From Mucilaginibacter yixingensis (GTDB taxonomy: Bacteria; Bacteroidota; Bacteroidia; Sphingobacteriales; Sphingobacteriaceae): a stretch of 64,000 bases of DNA. The position numbers were made by a program, and so were the translations under genes. Below the pieces are notes generated by a model. That model did no database searches, was not told the origin of the DNA, and saw only the letters and a list, made by a program, of their open reading frames with translations. Shown here piece after piece: positions 2,280 through 45,547 of this stretch (positions are counted from its first letter, which is position 1; every line of letters begins with the position of its first letter). The DNA lies in contig NZ_CP160205.1 of NCBI RefSeq assembly GCF_041080815.1, forward strand, positions 4,278,001 to 4,342,000, given 5' to 3'.

Positions 2280-3599
2280 TTACAGGCGCCCATCAGATGC
2301 AGAGCGGGGCAAAAATGCTTTAGTGTCAAATATTACACCAGAACTGGTTTTCAGTTTCGTAATGTCGGCTTGCTGATATTCGGCATGAGCGACGGCCAAA
2401 ATAATAGCATCATAACGATGCGCTATATCTGTTAGTCTTGGCGACAGTTCAATACCATATTCATGCTTAACCTTGGCAGCATCAGCATGAGGGTCATGCA
2501 CATCTACATCAATACCAAATTGCGTCAGCTCGTTATAGATATCCATTACACGTGAGTTTCTGATATCCGGGCAATTCTCTTTAAACGTGATGCCCAATAT
2601 CAGTGCTTTTGCGCCATTTATAAAATTATTTCGGGCGATGAGGAGCTTAACTACTTTATTGGCTACAAAAATGCCCATATTATCATTCACCCTCCGTCCT
2701 GAAAGAATCACCTCAGGATGATAGCCTAATGATTCAGCTTTGTGCACCAGGTAGTATGGGTCTACCCCAATGCAATGGCCACCAACCAGTCCGGGTTTAT
2801 ATTTCAAAAAGTTCCATTTGGTACCAGCGGCTTCCAGCACATCGGTTGTGTCTAAGCCAATACGGTCAAAAATCAATGCCAGCTCGTTTACAAAGGATAT
2901 ATTGACATCTCGCTGTGCATTCTCAATAGCTTTTGAAGCTTCGGCTACTTTGATACTAGGCGCCAGATGAGTGCCTGCAGTAATGATACTTTTATAAAGC
3001 TGGTCTACAAATTGCGCTGTTTGCGGCGTAGAACCCGATGTTACCTTTATAATAGACGTAACAGTATGTAATTTATCGCCTGGATTAATGCGCTCGGGCG
3101 AGTAGCCACAAAAGAAATCGACATTAAACTTAAGTCCCGAAAACTTCTCCAGCACTGGCACACAATCATCTTCGGTGCAACCAGGGTAAACGGTTGATTC
3201 ATAAATCACCACGTCGTCCTTTTTCAGCACCTTACCCAACATTTCAGAAGCTCTGAGTAGGGGCCCCAGGTCTGGCGCCTTAAAACGATCAATTGGTGTA
3301 GGTACAGTTACAATATATACATTACACTCACGCAGCAATTCTACATTTGCAGATACCCGCAAGCCATGCCCGTTATAATTGTTCATAGCCCGACGCAGTT
3401 CCTCATTGTCTACCTCATTGGTATCATCTTCAGCGCGCTGTAATATCTCTATCCGTTTTTCGTCTATATCAAATCCTAATACACGGTACTTATTGCTAAA
3501 AGCTGTTGCCAACGGTAAGCCTACATACCCTAGACCAATGACGGCAATCCGGCAATCGGCCGCGTTAAAAGATGTTGAATCGTTCTTGGTTTTATCCAT
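2280..3599 (-). CDS. nucleotide sugar dehydrogenase, TviB/WbpO type
   Basis: A 439-residue UDP-sugar 6-dehydrogenase, oxidising C6 of a UDP-hexose(NAc) to the uronic acid with two NAD+. It shows the Rossmann motif GLGYVGLP at 22-29, [11 protein letters not shown] in the middle domain, and the catalytic cysteine C276 in [12 protein letters not shown]. The ending with [14 protein letters not shown] is typical of the Vi-antigen TviB and WbpO group, which act on UDP-GlcNAc or UDP-GalNAc, rather than of UDP-glucose dehydrogenase. Substrate is inferred from family resemblance only. It precedes DUF3467 by 32 nt and follows a Wzx gene. Confidence 0.9.
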
Positions 3600-5171: not shown

Positions 5172-5195
5172 AAAGAAGTATACTATTACTTCTTT
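5172..5195 (-). terminator. possible hairpin terminator after the GT26 gene
   Basis: An 8-bp perfect stem (AAAGAAGT with ACTTCTTT, loop of 8) overlaps the TAA stop of the 5186-5929 gene. On the minus strand the stem is followed by TTAAATAAATT, a weak T-rich tail. The AT-rich stem makes this a modest candidate. Confidence 0.35.
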
Positions 5196-5929
5196 GTAAG
5201 AGAGTTTGTAAATTTCTCTCTGAAAACCATGTAAACAAATATAGGACCGTATATTACGTAGCGCTTCCAAACATGGGCGGGCTCTGTAAGTAAACGCACA
5301 AACCACTCTAGCCCCAATTTAATCCATATTTTACCAGGGCGCTTAATAGTTCCGGAATAGAAATCAAATACAGCACCAATAGAGCATACTAATTTGGCGT
5401 CAATAGCCTCTTTATTGGCATCCACCCATTTCTCTTGCTTAGGGGCGGTCATCCCAACGAATAATACATCTGGTTTAAACTCGTTTACCGCCTCAATCAT
5501 CTTTTGATTATCCTCGGCATTAAAGTTCGCTTTAAATGGTGGCGAATAGGTTTCTACCCTTACATGCGGAAACTCTACCGCGATGGTTCTTTTTATAAGA
5601 CGAAGTGTTTCATCTGAAGAGCCAAGGTAAAAGCAGCTACCTTTTTGCTCTTCTAGCCGGTGCAACAGATACATGTGCAGGTCAGAACCTGCAATCTTTT
5701 TTATCCTGGCTTTTTTTAGTATCCGGGCGGCACCAACAATACCAACCCCGTCAGGCAGCAATATATCGGAATTGATCAGCGCTTTTTTAAAGGCAGGATC
5801 TTTTTCTGCCATATTAAATGAGAACTGATTTAGCGTATTGATAATATACTTGGATTGTATCTCTATTTTATCAATAGAAGAGTTGAACACCGTATAATCA
5901 AACAGCTCTATGTTTTCATGCTTATTCAT
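5186..5929 (-). CDS. WecB/TagA/CpsF (GT26) family glycosyltransferase
   Basis: A 247-residue cytoplasmic or membrane-associated transferase of the WecG/TagA/CpsF family, which adds N-acetylmannosamine(uronic acid) or another hexose to a lipid-linked acceptor. Diagnostic segments are DILLPDGVGIV at 55-65 and VGMTAPKQEKW at 158-168, followed by SIGAVFDFYSG. The C-terminus ends in a basic/hydrophobic stretch likely to contact the membrane, as in TagA. Its presence near a UDP-HexNAc dehydrogenase and a flippase suggests a role in building a lipid-linked repeat. The sugar donor cannot be read from sequence. Confidence 0.92.
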   Translation of the reverse strand: MNKHENIELFDYTVFNSSIDKIEIQSKYIINTLNQFSFNMAEKDPAFKKALINSDILLPDGVGIVGAARILKKARIKKIAGSDLHMYLLHRLEEQKGSCFYLGSSDETLRLIKRTIAVEFPHVRVETYSPPFKANFNAEDNQKMIEAVNEFKPDVLFVGMTAPKQEKWVDANKEAIDAKLVCSIGAVFDFYSGTIKRPGKIWIKLGLEWFVRLLTEPAHVWKRYVIYGPIFVYMVFREKFTNSLTKK

Positions 5930-19464: not shown

Positions 19465-20490
19465 ATGAAGGTTTTACACGTAGGCGCTAAAAATTATCCA
19501 CCAGCTCATGGCGGCACCGAAAGAGTTGTATACAATATCGTTAACTCGATTGACGATGTTGATTTTTACATCCTGGTAGAATGGCAGCAGCAAGAAACCG
19601 ATCGCATTTTTGTAATGCCCGAGGGCCTCGGCTATCTGGCAAAAATGAAATATATACACCAATTTGCCAAACAGCATGGTATAGATATTATTCATTTCCA
19701 TAACGAAAAGTATATACCAATGGCTATGCTGCTGGCCATACGTTTTAAAAATATAGTGCTTACAGTACACGGCGTCCACTTCAGAAGCCCGAAATGGAAT
19801 ATGATCAACCGCAGCATATTCTGGTGTGTAGATGTTTTAGGAACCGTATTTTTACCACGCTTGGTATTCTGCTCTGAATATGATGAAAAGGCTTTCGCCA
19901 AATACATCTTCTTCAGAAAAACATATTTTATTAACAACGGCACTAATATTAGTCCGCTCAAGCAAACCGAGCAAAGCATCGAGTTTTCTGATACCTATAT
20001 CTACCTGGGCCGTATTACGCCAGCTAAAAATGTACTCCGGTTGGTAGACGCTGCAACATCAAGGAAAATTAAGCTTCATATTTATGGCGTGCTTGACAAA
20101 GAGTGCCAGGAATATTGTGACGAGGTAATGGGTAAAATAAACGCCAGCGACTATGTAGAGTATAAAGGCGTAGTGCCTTATGATCAGGTATTTCAAACCA
20201 TGATCAAGTATAAAGCATTCCTCTACATCACTATCATGGAAGGCCTGCCCCTTGCCGTGCTCGAAGCGGCCTCATGTGGCATGTTCCTTATTCTTTCAGA
20301 TATTCCCCATCATACTTTCCTTAAAGTACCAAATGTTAAGTATGTTGATGTCAAAGATCCACAAATTCCTTATCCGGAAGAAATTCCCTCAGGCGCTGAT
20401 AACAGGGCACATATACTGGCTCATTTCTCAAATAAGCAAATGGGCGATGAGTACAAAAAAATCTATAACTCATTAAAAACAATGCGTTAA
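19465..20490 (+). CDS. GT4 family glycosyltransferase
   Basis: A 341-residue GT-B transferase starting KVLHVGAKNYPPAHGGTERVV, the PPxxGGxE pattern of many GT4 capsule enzymes. The donor domain shows YIYLGRITPAKNVLRLVDAA and ITIMEGLPLAVLEAASCGMFLILSD, with the E-x7-E pair. It is the last sugar-transfer gene of the first plus-strand run; the 316-nt gap after it includes palindromes and a possible new promoter, so transcription may stop or be re-initiated there. Confidence 0.9.
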   Translation: MKVLHVGAKNYPPAHGGTERVVYNIVNSIDDVDFYILVEWQQQETDRIFVMPEGLGYLAKMKYIHQFAKQHGIDIIHFHNEKYIPMAMLLAIRFKNIVLTVHGVHFRSPKWNMINRSIFWCVDVLGTVFLPRLVFCSEYDEKAFAKYIFFRKTYFINNGTNISPLKQTEQSIEFSDTYIYLGRITPAKNVLRLVDAATSRKIKLHIYGVLDKECQEYCDEVMGKINASDYVEYKGVVPYDQVFQTMIKYKAFLYITIMEGLPLAVLEAASCGMFLILSDIPHHTFLKVPNVKYVDVKDPQIPYPEEIPSGADNRAHILAHFSNKQMGDEYKKIYNSLKTMR

Positions 20491-20806
20491 AATTAGGGGC
20501 CTTAATAAAGCACGTGCTATTACAGCATAGAAATAGCATTAAAAAAGCATGTGTGTTCATTTTCCCCAAGCACATGTTTTATTAACAAAAAATTAAAAAA
20601 CTCTATTTGTAGATTTATACTTACAATCTGACATAAAATTCTATTTTTGCATTAAATCAGATCTTTATTTAACGTTTTCTTATAAAAGCCACCAATGCAT
20701 TAAAAAAGCTCACACTTAACAATGCATTGTAGTTTAAAAGAACATATTTAAATACGATTTAACTTTTTTAACTTACTATAAAGTAAAATACCTCTCAATA
20801 CATATT
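20491..20806 (+). promoter_or_regulatory. intergenic control region before the oxidoreductase gene
   Basis: No gene is seen here. It begins with a perfect palindrome AGCACGTGCT (20509-20518) and an imperfect CATGTG/CACATG hairpin (20548-20576), which could end the upstream transcript. A 13-nt direct repeat GCATTAAAAAAGC occurs at 20536-20548 and 20697-20709. TATTTTTG at 20642-20649 fits the -7 consensus TAnnTTTG but has no TTG box at the right distance. A separate promoter for the 20807-22692 pair is therefore possible but weakly supported. Confidence 0.4.
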
Positions 20807-21817
20807 ATGGTTAAAGTAGCACTAATCGGCGCCGGCAAAATGGGGATATCGCATTTGTCGATACTTGGCGCTCACAATGACGTGGAAGTTGTGGGAGTTT
20901 GCGATACGTCAAAAATGATCAACGATTTTCTTTCCCGTTATGGGAAATTTAATTGCTTTACAGATCTGAAAAAAATGTTGAAAGAAACTAAACCCGATGC
21001 TGTCGTTGTTGCTGTTCCAACAAAATTTCACTATAGCATTATTAAAGATCTGCTTGAAAGCAATGTACATGTTTTTGCCGAAAAGCCATTCTGTCTTACA
21101 ACCAAGCAGGGCGAAGAGCTGGTACAAATGGCGGAAAGACAGAAGCTTATTACCCAAGTTGGTTATCACAATAAGTTTATAGGCACATTTGGTGAAGTTA
21201 AGCGCCTAGTACAAAAAGGTGCTTTAGGTAAAATATATCATTTCGTGGCTGAATCATACGGCCCTGTAGTGATCCGACCGAAACAAGATACATGGCGCTC
21301 AGATCCATCTGAAGGCGGCGGCTGCTTACTTGATTATGCATCACACGTTATTGATCTGGTAAGTGATATTTTGGCACCTGTTGCCAAAGCCAAAGCCAGT
21401 TTACTTAAATCTGTATTCTCAAACACGGTTGAAGACGCAGTTTATTCTACCTTGGAGTTAGAGAACCAGATAAGCGGCACGCTTTCTGTTAACTGGAGCG
21501 ATGAAACTCATAGAAAAATGTCTACTTCTATCACGCTGGTAGGTACAAACGGAAAGATCGTATCAGACGCAAACGAACTGAAGGTTTATCTGAAAGAGAA
21601 CGACGGCAATGAGGGTTATGATAAAGGATGGACCGTAAAATACATTACTGACCTTACCGACCAGGTTGACTTTTACCTGCGTGGCGAAGAATACTCTGCA
21701 CAGTTAGATTATTTTGTAAAAGCCGTATCCGGGAAAGTACCAAATACCATCAATACCTTCCGTTCGGCATGGTATACTGATAAAGCAATTGAAATGATTA
21801 GACAAAGCGCCAACTAA
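20807..21817 (+). CDS. Gfo/Idh/MocA family NAD(P)-dependent oxidoreductase
   Basis: A 336-residue sugar oxidoreductase. The N-terminal Rossmann motif is ALIGAGKMG (5-13), the family lysine motif is AEKPF with EKP at 92-94, and the C-terminal domain has LLDYASHVIDL with D176 and H180 as likely catalytic/metal residues. Such enzymes oxidise or reduce ring positions of (nucleotide) sugars. The next gene, 5 nt downstream, encodes an uncharacterised protein, and the two probably act on the same compound. Substrate unknown; could be a nucleotide-sugar-modifying dehydrogenase of the WlbA or KijD10 kind. Confidence 0.9.
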   Translation: MVKVALIGAGKMGISHLSILGAHNDVEVVGVCDTSKMINDFLSRYGKFNCFTDLKKMLKETKPDAVVVAVPTKFHYSIIKDLLESNVHVFAEKPFCLTTKQGEELVQMAERQKLITQVGYHNKFIGTFGEVKRLVQKGALGKIYHFVAESYGPVVIRPKQDTWRSDPSEGGGCLLDYASHVIDLVSDILAPVAKAKASLLKSVFSNTVEDAVYSTLELENQISGTLSVNWSDETHRKMSTSITLVGTNGKIVSDANELKVYLKENDGNEGYDKGWTVKYITDLTDQVDFYLRGEEYSAQLDYFVKAVSGKVPNTINTFRSAWYTDKAIEMIRQSAN

Positions 21818-21822
21818 ATACC

Positions 21823-22692
21823 ATGGAAAGAATATTATTTGGAGACAACCAGTTTTTTGCTGTAAACCATATTTCTGACGAAAAGTCACGTGCACAATCT
21901 ATAAAATTCAGAGAAGATAGCGCAATCATTAAAACCCTTGATGACGCAAGGGCAGAAGGTATAGATACCTTTATGTGTACCACGCACGACAGAATTGCCA
22001 ACATTTGTAATATTGTACGCAGCGAACCAGAGAAGTATAAAAACTTCAAGATCTTCCCTTGTATGCCTTACGCGCACAAGTATGCCAATGCAGTAACCGA
22101 ACTTGGCATTGCCGGCACGCTTAAACAATATGTACCAGGCAATTTTATGGGCTCACTGTTTAAAGGCGGAATGGCTTTCCTCTCTAAGGATTACCTATCT
22201 ATTATGGAGTTGCTGGTAGATGCCGAAATGAAAATGTTTAAAGGCATTGAAACCCCGGTAATTTTCCTGCAAAACGTTATTACAGACCTTTTTCTTGGTT
22301 TGCGCGCTTACGAGATCCTCGCAGCCTTTCATCACTATGTGAAGAAAAAATATAATGCAGAAGCTGGTTTTATAACCATGAACCTGCCGCTGTTATTAGA
22401 CGCGCTTGAATCACAAGGCATTGAAAACCCAATCATCTGTGCTTCTATCAATAAAGTTGGTTTCCGCATGTCTGGTGGTAAAGAGATTTATGAAGAAACC
22501 CTGAAAAACCGCAAAGTACGCGCAATTGCAATGCAGGTACTGGGAGGAGGCGCCATATCACCAAAAGAAGCAATTGAGTATGTATGCAACTTACCTAATA
22601 TTGAATCAATATTATTTGGTGCATCATCAAAAGCTAATATACAGAACACGGTAGAGAACATTCATCATTTTGATCAACAGGATAATCGATAA
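21823..22692 (+). CDS. uncharacterised protein, possibly aldo/keto-reductase-like barrel
   Basis: A 289-residue soluble protein whose function I cannot assign. The start MERILFGDNQFFAVNHISDE, the stretch DEGIDTFMCTTHDRI-like (ARAEGIDTFMCTTHDRIANI) and the end IESILFGASSKANIQNTVENI recall the aldo/keto reductase barrel, where the final segment binds cofactor phosphate. The usual AKR Asp-Tyr-Lys-His tetrad is not evident. It starts 5 nt after the Gfo/Idh/MocA gene, so the two are coupled and likely work on one sugar intermediate. I recall similar pairs in surface polysaccharide loci, but with no known chemistry. Confidence 0.6.
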   Translation: MERILFGDNQFFAVNHISDEKSRAQSIKFREDSAIIKTLDDARAEGIDTFMCTTHDRIANICNIVRSEPEKYKNFKIFPCMPYAHKYANAVTELGIAGTLKQYVPGNFMGSLFKGGMAFLSKDYLSIMELLVDAEMKMFKGIETPVIFLQNVITDLFLGLRAYEILAAFHHYVKKKYNAEAGFITMNLPLLLDALESQGIENPIICASINKVGFRMSGGKEIYEETLKNRKVRAIAMQVLGGGAISPKEAIEYVCNLPNIESILFGASSKANIQNTVENIHHFDQQDNR

Positions 22693-22780
22693 TTACTCTG
22701 TCTGGAAACCATCAACCTGTTAATTTGTAATATCTACATCAATCGTATTACATTTAGTGTAAACTCTAAATGCTTCTGTT

Positions 22781-24304
22781 ATGAAAAAGGTTATCGTTTT
22801 CCTGGCTATAATTTCGGCTTGCGGTTTGGCAGTAAAAGCTTTTTTTTACGCTAATTATGATGATGAAACGGCAGAAAACTTTCAGAAAGTCCGTAAGTTT
22901 TCGCCTGCGGAGGTTGCGCATTTGTCTGTACTGAATAATAAAGTAATTATAGACAATTTCTTGGGGGTAAATGCCGTCTATCACGGTTTTGCTTTTTTTA
23001 ATGAGTCTGGCACCCCCCCGATGTCACTAAATGACCGGGGGGTTGAATTTCGCAGAGTAGCTGCAATGCAGCTCAAGATAGCAAGAACCTGGTATCGCCC
23101 AAACTGGTCTTGCCCCAATGGCATCTACCAGAACTACGATTGGGAAAACAATAAGATGCAGGCCCTGTATGCCTGGCTAGACAAAATGAAACAGCTTAAA
23201 GTGGATGTTGCATTACAGGCTGGCTGGTTTTTTCCGGCAGATGTATCATATGGTCACTCTTCTGCAGATACAACGAGAGATGTTATTCGTTATGCCGATT
23301 GGGTAAATGAATCACTTCATCAATTTATTAAAGTTAAAGGGTTTACCAACATTAAATACCTGATGCTCTTTACAGAGCCTTTTAATGTAAAAAAATATAG
23401 CGCAAACCCATACACAAATACTCCTGCATATTATGCCAAAGTATGCAACGCCATAAACGATAAGCTGATTGCTACCGGCATGAGATCTGAGATTAAAATT
23501 GTTGGCCCTAATTCAGGAAGCACAGATACTGCTGCATTTATTGGCTGGAGCACCCAAACCCTGAATAAGGTAATTGATATATACAGCTGGCATACATATA
23601 ACGGCAAACAATACAATACCAACCCGCCATTAGAATATGATGGATGGAAGGCAATTGCTGATGTGGGCAAAAATAAAATTGCAGGCACCGGTAAACCTTT
23701 CTGGATAGATGAGTATGGGGCGAGCAGACCGAATGAAAAATTTAGATTCAGTGCAGATTATGGAAACTATCTGGCACAATGCGTAGCTGCATTTATCAAT
23801 TCAGGAGCTCAGTCTTCTTTACTATGGATTTTATTCAATCAGAAATACGAAGGCAATTATTCTGATAATAAGGATAGCTTTTATAAGGGCGTGCAGCGGT
23901 GGGGATTGGTTAGATTTCCTAAAGACAATGGAGATACCGACCATACACCATATCCAAGCTGGTATGCCTTTAGCATGATGAGCAAGTATATGGGAGGCTA
24001 TGGCTATTCTAAAACATTCAAAGTTATTAACCAAGACAGCATGTATGTGGCTTATGTTCAGAACAAAAAGAATGTGTCATTAATGGTTATCAATGCATCT
24101 CATGTGCCCAGAAAGTTTGATGTTAAATTTGCCGTCCCAATTAATGCTACTCTTAATAGAATCGTTTATGATCCTGGCACAATAAAAGTTTCAGAGAATG
24201 TAGACATGCTAAATGTTGATAAGCATTTACCCAATGTTACAAATACGTTTTCAGATCAAATCCCTTCCAGAGGAGTAAGTATTTATACAACAGCAACCAA
24301 TTAA
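22781..24304 (+). CDS. secreted clan GH-A-like glycoside hydrolase
   Basis: A 507-residue protein with an N-terminal signal peptide (KKVIVFLAIISACGLAVKA) and a (beta/alpha)8 hydrolase body. Candidate catalytic acids are E199 in LMLFTEPFN (acid/base) and E311 in FWIDEYGASRP (nucleophile), the paired pattern of retaining clan GH-A enzymes. A C-terminal beta domain ends with RGVSIYTTA, as in GH39/GH51/GH5-like proteins. The exact GH family is not assignable by eye. In a polysaccharide operon it may trim or release the polymer in the periplasm or outside the cell. It converges with the 24339-25532 gene. Confidence 0.75.
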   Translation: MKKVIVFLAIISACGLAVKAFFYANYDDETAENFQKVRKFSPAEVAHLSVLNNKVIIDNFLGVNAVYHGFAFFNESGTPPMSLNDRGVEFRRVAAMQLKIARTWYRPNWSCPNGIYQNYDWENNKMQALYAWLDKMKQLKVDVALQAGWFFPADVSYGHSSADTTRDVIRYADWVNESLHQFIKVKGFTNIKYLMLFTEPFNVKKYSANPYTNTPAYYAKVCNAINDKLIATGMRSEIKIVGPNSGSTDTAAFIGWSTQTLNKVIDIYSWHTYNGKQYNTNPPLEYDGWKAIADVGKNKIAGTGKPFWIDEYGASRPNEKFRFSADYGNYLAQCVAAFINSGAQSSLLWILFNQKYEGNYSDNKDSFYKGVQRWGLVRFPKDNGDTDHTPYPSWYAFSMMSKYMGGYGYSKTFKVINQDSMYVAYVQNKKNVSLMVINASHVPRKFDVKFAVPINATLNRIVYDPGTIKVSENVDMLNVDKHLPNVTNTFSDQIPSRGVSIYTTATN

Positions 24305-42518: not shown

Positions 42519-43712
42519 TTATAGTGATTGTATAAGATGCTGATAAGCTGCACGCCATTTGCCATGCATGGCGGCAGTACCGGTTTCACTAGCTACCAGT
42601 TTTGCCGCGTTGTTTAATATTTTATTGATCTGCTGCCCATCGGCAAAAACCTCAAATGCGGCGCGGATGCTTTTGGCATCAGCCCGCTCTACTACCAACG
42701 CAGCGTCATGCGTTTTCAGATAGTCCGTCATAGCCGCATACGGCGGACCGATAGCCAGCACCGGCACACCGCAAGCCAGGCTCTCGCTCATCTTAGTGGC
42801 TATGTTAAACTGCGACATATTACGCAAGCCATCAGCAAAGCCAATGGGCAACAATATGGCGTGGTACTGCTGCATTGTCGGCAGAACTTTATCTGCCGCT
42901 ATACGACCTTTAAAGTTTACGCCTGGCAGCAAAATATCACCAGGCACCGCCTCTGCGGCGGAATAGATATCCAACGAGCAGTTGGCTCCCTGAACGCTCT
43001 GCGCTACTGCTGCCAATACATCCTTTTGCCATCTGGCTACTGCACCAAAGTAACCTATCTTCAAGCCTTCAGCAGCAACGGATGTTTTAAACTCAACAGC
43101 CGAAGCCGCGTCATCTGCCGGACCAAAAACCACGGTCGACTCTACGCCGAACCGCTCTTTGTAAAAAGCCTGCATAGCAGGGCTAATTACCAATACCTGG
43201 TCTGCCTGCTGCAAATGTCTGGCAAATATCGGTTCAATCCAACCGTCATATTTCCAACTGCCATCAACATACTTCACCAGGTGATCATCCATCACCCAGG
43301 TAATGTATTTTATGTTGCGGCGCTGCCGCAACTCGGCCAGTGTGCAGATAGCATCAGCTCCCTGTGGACAAATTAATGCCTTTAACTCTTTTTTAGCGCC
43401 CAGTTGTTTATCGGCCAACTTTGCCAATTCAGCTGCCTGTTTTTTGATAACAGATGGCTTTCTGCGCATTTTAGCAGCAAACGTGCGCCCGGTAATACGG
43501 CGCACCCCATCATTTTCCCAAACCGAGTGCTTACTGATGCATTTGCCGGCCAGATCTGCCGCCGGTGCCATATCATCAGCAAAACGGTTGGCATGTATAA
43601 AATACCGGATCTTCTTCAAATCATCTCCCAATACCCGGTGCAGGGTAAGCCCGCCGCCATGTTTCTCTGACGCCGACATTTCTGAGAGATAAAAATCAAG
43701 ACCTGTATCCAT
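42519..43712 (-). CDS. glycosyltransferase-like protein, divergent GT-B
   Basis: A 397-residue protein starting DTGLDFYLSEMSASEKHGGG. The acceptor half has ITWVMDDHLVKYVDGSWKYD and VLVISPAMQAFYKERFGVES; the latter matches the divergent group encoded at 37484 (VISTGMQAYYQKMCGVE). The donor half has LKIGYFGAVARWQKDVLAAV and IATKMSESLACGVPVLAIGP. Assignment as a glycosyltransferase is from this overall GT-B pattern; no donor can be named. It lies between DUF5672 and the epimerase in the operon. Confidence 0.68.
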   Translation of the reverse strand: MDTGLDFYLSEMSASEKHGGGLTLHRVLGDDLKKIRYFIHANRFADDMAPAADLAGKCISKHSVWENDGVRRITGRTFAAKMRRKPSVIKKQAAELAKLADKQLGAKKELKALICPQGADAICTLAELRQRRNIKYITWVMDDHLVKYVDGSWKYDGWIEPIFARHLQQADQVLVISPAMQAFYKERFGVESTVVFGPADDAASAVEFKTSVAAEGLKIGYFGAVARWQKDVLAAVAQSVQGANCSLDIYSAAEAVPGDILLPGVNFKGRIAADKVLPTMQQYHAILLPIGFADGLRNMSQFNIATKMSESLACGVPVLAIGPPYAAMTDYLKTHDAALVVERADAKSIRAAFEVFADGQQINKILNNAAKLVASETGTAAMHGKWRAAYQHLIQSL

Positions 43713-43727
43713 TTATTTTATTGCCCA

Positions 43728-44549
43728 TTATGTGTTAACGGGGATATATTTTTTCCAAAAATCCGGGTGTTTCTCCCATGCGTGGCATCCCAACGGCAAT
43801 TGCTCCCCGTTGAGTTGCAGCAAGCGCTCAGGATTATACTCAAAGCTGAATTTTATAGCCGTAAGCGGGTCTGCCACCTTGAACCAGGGAAACATCTGCG
43901 GTACCACACGCGACCATATCAGATCTTCATTCACATGTTTTTCAGAAAATGCAAATCCAAAATAGCCGTTCACGTAATTCTCGTACCGGTAATCGGTCAA
44001 ACCATTTACCCAATGCTTTAAGCGCTGCGATGCCAGCAATACCTGGTACATTTTCCACTTCCGCTTAAACAAGTGCATGCTACCAAGCACCTTGAGGCAC
44101 GATGCGATGTTGCGTACCGAGAAACCCGAGTTACCACCGTTAATCAATGGTGCATCTGGCGCGGCATCCCAGTAGCCTTTAAAAAACGGCGCGCCTATAT
44201 AATCAAAATCAAAAGCGCCGGTTGCCTCAATATCATCACTAAAAATGTAGGCATCCAGCTCATACGTCAACATAAACTCATAGCCCGCAAAAAGCTGATA
44301 AAAGGTGGGGCTCAACTTCATGCGGTTATAACGTTCTACCGAGGTAAGCCAGGCAGCATCCACCGGCTGCAAACGCAACTGCGGAAAAATAGCTGTATAA
44401 GCCCTGGTATCCATCCCTTGCGGAAAAACCAAATAACAATGATGGGCTGATAAATGTGCCGCGCATGCCTGTAACGACAAAGCCTGACCTTCGGTAAGAT
44501 CTGGCTGATGCACAGGTATAACCACACACATTTTTTCTACCACCTTCAT
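43728..44549 (-). CDS. DUF5672 family protein, putative glycosyltransferase
   Basis: A 273-residue cytoplasmic protein. The central block, MLTYELDAYIFSDDIEATGA then FDYIGAPFFKGYWDA and INGGNSGFSVRNIASCL, is the DUF5672 signature: an acidic Y-E-L-D-A-Y-x-F that resembles a GT-A DxD site, and N-G-G-x-S-G-F-S-x-R. The family is found in polysaccharide loci and is thought to transfer sugars, but I know of no proven activity. Its ATG overlaps the TAA of the GT8-like gene by one base (TAATG). Confidence 0.82.
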   Translation of the reverse strand: MKVVEKMCVVIPVHQPDLTEGQALSLQACAAHLSAHHCYLVFPQGMDTRAYTAIFPQLRLQPVDAAWLTSVERYNRMKLSPTFYQLFAGYEFMLTYELDAYIFSDDIEATGAFDFDYIGAPFFKGYWDAAPDAPLINGGNSGFSVRNIASCLKVLGSMHLFKRKWKMYQVLLASQRLKHWVNGLTDYRYENYVNGYFGFAFSEKHVNEDLIWSRVVPQMFPWFKVADPLTAIKFSFEYNPERLLQLNGEQLPLGCHAWEKHPDFWKKYIPVNT

Positions 44550-45547
44550 TAAGTCGTTTTTATAGACCGATCAATTATTTTAATCAGCTTTCTTTTTATT
44601 CTGGTAATCAATGTCCGCTCCGTAGCCTTTACCCTCCACTGATGATCTTTGTGCAGTTGATGATAATACGCTTCTGATGCCATAGCAGTTACTGCACCTG
44701 CGGCTGTAAGGTTGCCCTGATAGTCATCAAAAATTGGCGACAGGTCTGGCCTGTTTTGGCGCGAGTAACGGGTATTGTATTTACACAATGTTTCGGGGTG
44801 GCTATAGCGGTAACTGCTGAAATGAAAAAACGTGAGCGGATAGGTATCATTAACCCACCATTGTCCGTCTTTCTCCGTCAACTGACGTTCATGCCAGTTC
44901 CAGTTGGCCACATTATAGCCGTAATGTTTCAGGATATGCCAGTTATTAAACATCACGGGGATATACATGGCCCAGATCTGGTCATAAAACATGCCTTTAT
45001 CCCAATCATTATAACCGTAAACCAGCAAACGTTCACCCCACCATTTTAAAAATGGATCAAGCTCGGGCCCTTTGGACAACCCCAGGAAGCCCAAATTGAA
45101 GATGCCGGTGCGCAACGTAAAAAAGTCGCTGGGTATTTTACCGTCATCAACAGGGTTCATCAGATGCGGGGTGAGCACAAAAGTATATTGATTTAATGCC
45201 TCCCAGCAATCGGTCATAGGTGCATACACCTTAATATCCGGGTCGATGTACACTACCTGATCGTACGTTTGGAACAAGTGCTGAAAAACAAAAGGTTTTA
45301 CCGTGGTACACAATTCAGAAATACCGAAACGTTGCGCCAAAGCCGCTATATCGAGCTGTACCAGATCATCAATCCAAAGCAGGCTTGGCTGTTCAAATTG
45401 CGTATAATCTAATCCAGCGTCGGGCCTGTCTACTAAAACAATAAAAAAATCAATATCAGGATGCTGGCCGCAAAAGGAGTTCTTAAGCACCTTTGCCGCT
45501 GCCAGATAATTATTTGCACATATAGTAAAAGCTGCCCGTTTCATCAT
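44549..45547 (-). CDS. GT8-like glycosyltransferase
   Basis: A 332-residue GT-A-type protein. FTICANNYLAAAKVLKNSF is the GT8-type start; VVYIDPDIKVYAPM gives the DxD at 102-104; GIFNLGFLGLSKGPELDPFL and WDKGMFYDQIWAMYIPVMF fit the acceptor part, and FFHFSSYRYSHPETLC the C-terminal lobe. A second ATG one codon later (45544) is an equally good start. It overlaps the LbH gene upstream by 4 nt and DUF5672 downstream by 1 nt, so these three are a translational unit. Confidence 0.8.
   Translation of the reverse strand: MMKRAAFTICANNYLAAAKVLKNSFCGQHPDIDFFIVLVDRPDAGLDYTQFEQPSLLWIDDLVQLDIAALAQRFGISELCTTVKPFVFQHLFQTYDQVVYIDPDIKVYAPMTDCWEALNQYTFVLTPHLMNPVDDGKIPSDFFTLRTGIFNLGFLGLSKGPELDPFLKWWGERLLVYGYNDWDKGMFYDQIWAMYIPVMFNNWHILKHYGYNVANWNWHERQLTEKDGQWWVNDTYPLTFFHFSSYRYSHPETLCKYNTRYSRQNRPDLSPIFDDYQGNLTAAGAVTAMASEAYYHQLHKDHQWRVKATERTLITRIKRKLIKIIDRSIKTT

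Follow-up and report, generated by a model that had tools for sequence, protein, structure and literature searches.

A recurrent gene pair encoding a sugar dehydrogenase and a protein with a predicted aldo/keto reductase fold suggests an undescribed step in surface-polysaccharide sugar biosynthesis

What do a sugar dehydrogenase and an unannotated barrel-like protein do together in a surface-polysaccharide region? Two adjacent genes in a 64,000-nucleotide stretch of the Mucilaginibacter yixingensis genome (hereafter, the window) raise this question. An earlier note on this DNA read the first gene as encoding a sugar dehydrogenase and the second as encoding a protein with faint aldo/keto reductase (AKR) resemblance. 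We refer to the two proteins as GFO and AKRL, labels of this analysis.

We find that AKRL represents a well-conserved family – without a Pfam or NCBIfam match – that is linked to one dehydrogenase subfamily and encoded among glycosyltransferase genes. The pair points to an undescribed step in the making of a surface-polysaccharide sugar, and we recognized no description of it in the literature searched. It provides a concrete, testable lead to a rare-sugar pathway in the surface polysaccharides of Bacteroidota and Alphaproteobacteria. If AKRL is catalytic, it would be an AKR barrel doing chemistry without the usual tetrad.

The gene pair and its locus

The two open reading frames lie as they had been described, 5 nt apart on a host genome that is a single 5.36-Mb contig (Table 1). 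Both look like real genes, because orthologues are conserved and dN is low relative to dS: AKRL orthologues of nearly full length and 73–90% identity occur in 80 loci, and comparisons with three close loci (of AKRL with its counterparts in L012, L013 and L018, and of GFO with those in L012 and L018) give dN of 0.07–0.15 with dS of 3.6 or undefined. The pair sits within a long surface-polysaccharide region with glycosyltransferase genes and (judged by eye) Wzx/Wzy-like genes; export- and Wzc-like genes, RmlA/RmlD, a TviB-like dehydrogenase and a WecG-family transferase are also near it in the window. The glycosyltransferase encoded by the preceding gene may use the product of the pair. A second TviB-like dehydrogenase is encoded in the host genome (G000:C1:2256660-2257937, 581.5 bits).

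Table 1. Coordinates of the gene pair and of neighbouring features in the window
Feature	Position	Strand	Description
GFO	20807-21817	+	336 aa, Gfo/Idh/MocA-family dehydrogenase
AKRL	21823-22692	+	289 aa, AKR-fold protein without canonical tetrad
Intergenic region 5' of the pair	20491-20806	+	316 nt
Preceding gene, glycosyltransferase	19465-20490	+	341 aa, Glycos_transf_1 / Glyco_transf_4 match
WecG/TagA/CpsF-family glycosyltransferase, same polysaccharide region	5186-5929	-	Family match
TviB-like UDP-GlcNAc C-6 dehydrogenase	2280-3599	-	529.7 bits, cut-off 592

The earlier note had also assigned the pair its own 316-nt control region. The gap is real, but its reading as a control region fared less well. 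Although it holds a promoter-like match (20593-20621, 9/12), a scan of positions 20400-22900 yielded 4 such sites versus 8.4 in shuffled sequence, and no Bacteroidota-type promoter pattern was found in the gap. A separate control region would be a trait of this locus: of the 63 relatives whose upstream neighbour lies on the same strand, 51 have that neighbour ending within 40 nt of GFO or overlapping it.

Three further proteins of the window drew our attention. Directly 3' of the pair, a 507-aa protein (22781-24304, + strand) has Pfam matches only at E 0.05 and worse, and a search of PDB sequences returned no match up to E 1. In a second polysaccharide cluster, proteins of 397 aa (42519-43712, - strand) and 332 aa (44549-45547, - strand) flank a DUF5672 protein (43728-44549) and have no Pfam match at E 1e-4.

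GFO is a Gfo/Idh/MocA-family dehydrogenase

The assignment of the first gene as a sugar dehydrogenase agrees with its Pfam matches, which place both a Rossmann domain and a C-terminal domain of the Gfo/Idh/MocA family above their cut-offs: PF01408 (GFO_IDH_MocA) at 95.6 bits (cut-off 24), and the C-terminal PF22725 at 83.7 bits (cut-off 27) and PF02894 at 52.5 bits (cut-off 22.9). The residues that we take to be catalytic in this family, the lysine of the EKP motif and a downstream histidine (here E92 K93 P94 and H180), are invariant in 10/10 rows of one alignment (A5) and 74/74 rows of another (A8).

For the predicted GFO model (pLDDT 90.1), the nearest structure is that of levoglucosan dehydrogenase (Z 37.7, rmsd 2.6, 328 aligned); inositol dehydrogenases (Z 36.5) and WlbA (Z 35.8, rmsd 2.5, 321 aligned) come next. 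The 50 structural matches listed include these first and third enzymes, GnnA (Z 33.5), DgpA, glucuronide-3-dehydrogenase and KanD2, several of which we take to oxidize a C3 hydroxyl. WlbA is also among the sequence neighbours of GFO, and DgpA and the BT_2158 family are among its matches. No NCBIfam equivalog cut-off was reached among the matches found. GFO scored 127.7 bits against the archaeal model for UDP-GlcNAc 3-dehydrogenase (NF040723, cut-off 450), and no bacterial WlbA or GnnA model was among its NCBIfam matches.

AKRL has a predicted AKR fold

A Pfam search at E up to 10 returns no family for AKRL. PF00248, the AKR family, is found in 0/10 AKRL members at the same threshold, and the nine relatives give only three stray Pfam matches. 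The single NCBIfam match (14.1 bits) is far under its cut-off of 298, and the AKRL sequence alone retrieves nothing better than E 0.14 from PDB sequences. The three annotated plasmid records that carry AKRL label it 'hypothetical protein'. The earlier note had held that a match of the second protein to a characterized enzyme would speak against its reading; we looked for one and found none in what was searched. A phage or viral origin was set aside, there being no phage match, no relative in viral contigs and no PHROGs family.

Structure prediction and comparison with TIM barrels, which had been suggested for this 289-residue protein, returned the AKR fold as the best match and give substance to the faint AKR likeness noted before. 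The AF2 model, built from 70 rows (pLDDT 79.4), has eight strands and forms a (beta/alpha)8 barrel. The best-scoring structures in VIA-align are AKRs (Z 17.5, rmsd 3.5, 231 aligned), and the 50 matches listed (Z 15.7–17.5) are AKR or AKR-type proteins, with Kv-beta among the top ones. In a Foldseek search AKRs were again the best matches (E 1.9e-5, TM 0.54); the 23 matches with an E of at most 0.001 also include a few other barrels.

The sequence likeness is confined to a C-terminal stretch, where a profile of the AKRL family gave five matches among all PDB sequences. The best is L-glyceraldehyde 3-phosphate reductase (E 0.0093), an AKR by its entry title; of the others, three are named as AKRs and one is the 'putative oxidoreductase' 3erp, presumably an AKR as well. 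Aligned by hhalign with nine AKRs – eight from the host genome and one from genome G317 – the family matches weakly over the same stretch (probability 12%, E 0.0024, 38 columns). The stretch includes a GASS motif that aligns with the AKR C-terminus, a region that in AKRs helps bind cofactor phosphates. We take the AKRL fold to be derived from that of AKRs, although the sequences on their own lend this little support.

The AKR catalytic tetrad is absent from AKRL

The catalytic tetrad of AKRs (Asp, Tyr, Lys and His) is located close to where strands 2, 3 and 4 end. Assigned by strand order rather than by coordinates, the corresponding positions of AKRL are M51, D56, M81/P82 and Q150. Across the 10 rows of alignment A4, the tetrad Asp, Tyr and Lys are found in 0/10 and the His in 1/10, whereas all four are present in 8/9 ordinary AKRs examined as a control. 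The earlier impression that the second protein has no evident AKR tetrad is thus borne out.

AKRL is nonetheless strongly constrained. Over the 10 rows, which extend down to 32% identity, 37 residues are invariant. Sixteen of them fall within the 56 positions of the barrel mouth (7.2 expected, p 2.9e-4), whereas the other end of the barrel holds only 2, where 6.8 would be expected; the mouth residues include N9, Y83, K86, D155, N187, N210, K211 and S268. Because of these invariant residues and their concentration at the mouth, we conclude that AKRL is not decaying; with this clustering, AKRL has the appearance of a working enzyme whose active site has been altered. AKRL is also better conserved than GFO, with a mean pairwise distance of 0.24 vs 0.33.

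Individual residues bear on what chemistry might be retained. Y83, K86, H16 and D155 are invariant in 10/10 rows, as is N187, which by strand order we take to occupy the place of the nicotinamide-binding Asn of AKRs. The invariant M237 presumably occupies that of the nicotinamide-stacking Tyr, again by strand order. The model has pLDDT below 50 at residues 11-28 and 104-122, where conservation is good, and a well-conserved GDNQFF..NH.S..K segment falls in a low-confidence stretch; therefore no active site can be drawn. This segment might be a loop that becomes ordered on binding.

GFO and AKRL recur as a pair

The earlier note had proposed a genome-neighbourhood search for the pair, whose failure to recur would have weakened its case. 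From a scan of genome contigs for AKRL relatives we kept the best 80 of 176 loci. They form a biased sample, being the closest relatives, with titles that mostly name Bacteroidota; some of their contigs also figure in our survey of 100 relatives. The pair did recur: GFO is directly upstream of AKRL in 80/80 kept loci, with a gap of -1 to 58 nt (median 4; at most 10 nt in 75/80), which rules out chance or artefact as the source of the pairing.

We also asked whether GFO occurs without AKRL. AKRL is present in 7/100 relatives and, at full length, in 5/296 genomes of the phylum; we left out a sixth match to its profile (E 2.6e-4, in G317), which covers only residues 225-283 and appears to be a genuine AKR. 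Among the 100 relatives, GFO reaches 501 bits or more in the 7 AKRL-bearing genomes and in no others, the next-best score being 141 bits. Among the 296 phylum genomes, for each of which at most seven first-look candidates were scored, the set with a GFO of 439 bits or more coincides with the 5 that have full-length AKRL, and the next GFO scores 157 bits. The GFO scores of at least two AKRL-bearing genomes are inflated, because the GFO profile includes their rows. No high-scoring GFO without AKRL was found in the two surveys, which overlap and together hold 11 distinct genomes with the pair. We read through 12 loci with next-best GFO relatives and saw no AKRL; they contained mostly unrelated genes and, in one case (L118), an ordinary AKR. 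The pairing is thus obligate in what was searched.

GFO and AKRL distances correlate over 77 loci (r 0.60, reached by 0/999 permutations), as is expected for any two co-inherited genes. The pair also extends to plasmids and, in one genome, to a divergent version. Of 72,556 plasmids, 4 match AKRL: GFO adjoins AKRL on those of Palleronia, Rhodovulum and Bacteroides thetaiotaomicron, and two short open reading frames separate them on that of Novosphingobium. In genome G132, an AKRL and a GFO that are 32% and 28% identical to those of the window follow a WecG-like gene, in the order WecG-like, GFO, AKRL. Bacteroidota-like AKRL copies in a contig titled as Beijerinckiaceae (L044, 79% identical) and in one titled as a Streptomyces griseus metagenome-assembled genome (L068, 75%) are probably binning errors. 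Three loci (L027, L029 and L032) encode, three genes upstream of GFO, a 718-aa protein that matches the GFO profile and adjoins a weak GH88 match.

The pair is constant and the adjoining transferase varies

To describe the genomic context, we tallied the immediate neighbours at 81 loci with an adjacent GFO, leaving out the window, as well as L008 because its GFO is not adjacent. Upstream of GFO is a same-strand gene in 63 loci, an opposite-strand gene in 14 and a contig end in 4. Pfam matches of the 63 same-strand neighbours, which may overlap, include DUF354 (21), Glycos_transf_1 (16), WecG (12) and Glyco_tran_28_C (GT28; 5), with a DegT aminotransferase in 2. Downstream neighbours, scanned for 63 of 64 loci, include Epimerase_2 (20), Bac_transf (9) and Poly_export (9); the 25 families listed, out of 30 found downstream, do not include DegT. 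A WcaJ-type initiating transferase homologue – a count that includes other Bac_transf proteins – is found in 55/83 loci. WecG was considered as an obligate partner and rejected, being found in only 6/11 genomes with the pair. The constant element is the GFO-AKRL pair, and the adjoining transferase varies. Since these transferases come from unrelated families, no single product is implied.

A block of DUF354, GFO, AKRL, UDP-GlcNAc 2-epimerase and WcaJ-type transferase genes recurs in L025, L029, L046, L057, L075 and others. DUF354 has been predicted to be a glycosyltransferase, though one in which few catalytic residues are preserved (PMC4520260). The recurrent block hints at a glycosyltransferase role for DUF354 in polysaccharide loci.

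We used the same genomes to narrow the candidate substrates. The downstream UDP-GlcNAc 2-epimerase gene (WecB, 20/63 loci) suggested UDP-ManNAc, but of eight near-complete genomes that carry the pair, three (G020, G055 and G194) have no WecB match and a fourth (G050) has only a partial one, under the cut-off; WecB-made UDP-ManNAc therefore does not look like a general substrate. A WecB match is present in 27/60 relatives. The TviB-like gene, which might have singled out UDP-GlcNAcA, does not discriminate: a match of at least 476 bits occurs in 8/11 genomes with the pair, and almost all relatives (55/60) have one of at least 460 bits. The UDP-glucose/GDP-mannose dehydrogenase C-terminal domain, present in 11/11 genomes with the pair, is equally uninformative. 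The candidates that remain are UDP-GlcNAc, UDP-GlcNAcA, UDP-Glc, UDP-GlcA or a lipid-linked sugar.

A proposed sugar-tailoring role and its alternatives

The earlier note took the pair to suggest a two-step oxidation/reduction or epimerization of a sugar; our results bear out the coupling, the recurrence and the polysaccharide setting, and leave the consecutive chemistry as a proposal. We propose that the pair is a two-enzyme sugar-tailoring unit of surface-polysaccharide biosynthesis in which GFO makes a ketone, AKRL acts on it and a glycosyltransferase takes the product, a reading to which we give even chances. GFO would oxidize a sugar hydroxyl, presumably with NAD+; the likeliest site is C3 of a hexose or N-acetylhexosamine that is UDP-activated (perhaps lipid-linked). 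AKRL could then promote a proton shift beside the ketone (C2 or C4 epimerization), after which GFO would re-reduce the ketone, or AKRL could itself reduce it. The resulting sugar would pass to the glycosyltransferase, which is often encoded alongside. Because the AKR tetrad is gone, we give enolization and direct reduction by relocated residues roughly equal odds. In its most specific form, the enolization route would make AKRL a non-reductase, cofactor-free branch of the AKR fold that enolizes the 3-keto sugar, nucleotide- or lipid-linked, that GFO produces – a redox-neutral two-component epimerase whose rare sugar is recruited by several unrelated glycosyltransferase families. We hold this version only tentatively, with the chances against it.

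AKRL might instead be a working NAD(P)H reductase that uses relocated residues such as Y83, K86, H16 and D155, making the pair an oxidize-then-reduce epimerase with two cofactors, in line with the guess of the earlier note. The invariance of these four residues, the predicted fold, the GASS stretch and N187 all fit such an enzyme, and ordinary AKR genes also adjoin Gfo/Idh/MocA genes (see below). The residues now at the tetrad positions, which control AKRs nearly always preserve, and a methionine where the nicotinamide-stacking Tyr is expected count against it, and we judge it possible but rather improbable. A further alternative makes AKRL a non-catalytic scaffold or stabilizer of GFO, or of a GFO-glycosyltransferase complex. 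Some AKR-fold proteins serve mainly as subunits, among them Kv-beta, one of the top structural matches; with the tetrad missing and the pairing obligate, the precedent has some appeal. A scaffold would not be expected to gather its invariant residues at the barrel mouth and spare the opposite end, nor to be better conserved than its client, and we find this explanation unlikely.

The pair could also belong to a variant of the WbpB/WlbA route, in which GFO makes a UDP-3-keto-HexNAc(A), the aminotransferase is encoded elsewhere and AKRL is an accessory. WlbA is a sequence and structural neighbour of GFO, and the window encodes a TviB-like dehydrogenase, as do most genomes with the pair. However, TviB-like genes also occur in almost all relatives, and no aminotransferase regularly accompanies the pair in the tallies of immediate neighbours, which leaves this the most doubtful of the readings considered.

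Comparison with known systems

The proposed tailoring unit shares features with several known systems. Among AKRs (PF00248), the nearest is AKR14A1/YghZ (L-glyceraldehyde 3-phosphate reductase, 6hg6); AKRL resembles AKRs in its predicted barrel and GASS motif. Unlike them, it has neither a Pfam match nor the tetrad, and in the data searched it turns up exclusively next to a single GFO subfamily. In the oxidative glycoside systems of DgpA with DgpB/C and of the BT_2158 family, C3 is oxidized first and a second protein then acts on the ketone. They serve catabolism, with an AP-endonuclease-type barrel as the second protein. GFO-AKRL would share the oxidize-first logic, but it lies in biosynthetic loci and has an AKR-fold partner.

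WbpB/WlbA and GnnA, the UDP-GlcNAc(A) 3-dehydrogenases, have the same fold as GFO, and WbpB/WlbA also shares its surface-polysaccharide context. WbpB feeds the aminotransferase WbpE (PMC10622841). The partner thus differs: an aminotransferase for WbpB, AKRL as the constant partner for GFO.

The host genome itself contains an ordinary counterpart on the - strand, where a tetrad-bearing AKR gene (C1:1073349-1074248) precedes a Gfo/Idh/MocA gene (C1:1072563-1073330), and genome G016 (L118) has the same arrangement. Since such independent neighbourhoods exist, adjacency of an AKR and a Gfo/Idh/MocA gene alone is not new. The ordinary AKR keeps the tetrad, scores 249.9 bits against PF00248 and is encoded first, and AKRL differs in each respect. 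GFO-AKRL stands out because AKRL lacks the tetrad, forms a sequence family of its own and is linked exclusively to one GFO subfamily; against the GFO profile, the ordinary Gfo/Idh/MocA protein scores 116 bits and GFO of the window 579.6.
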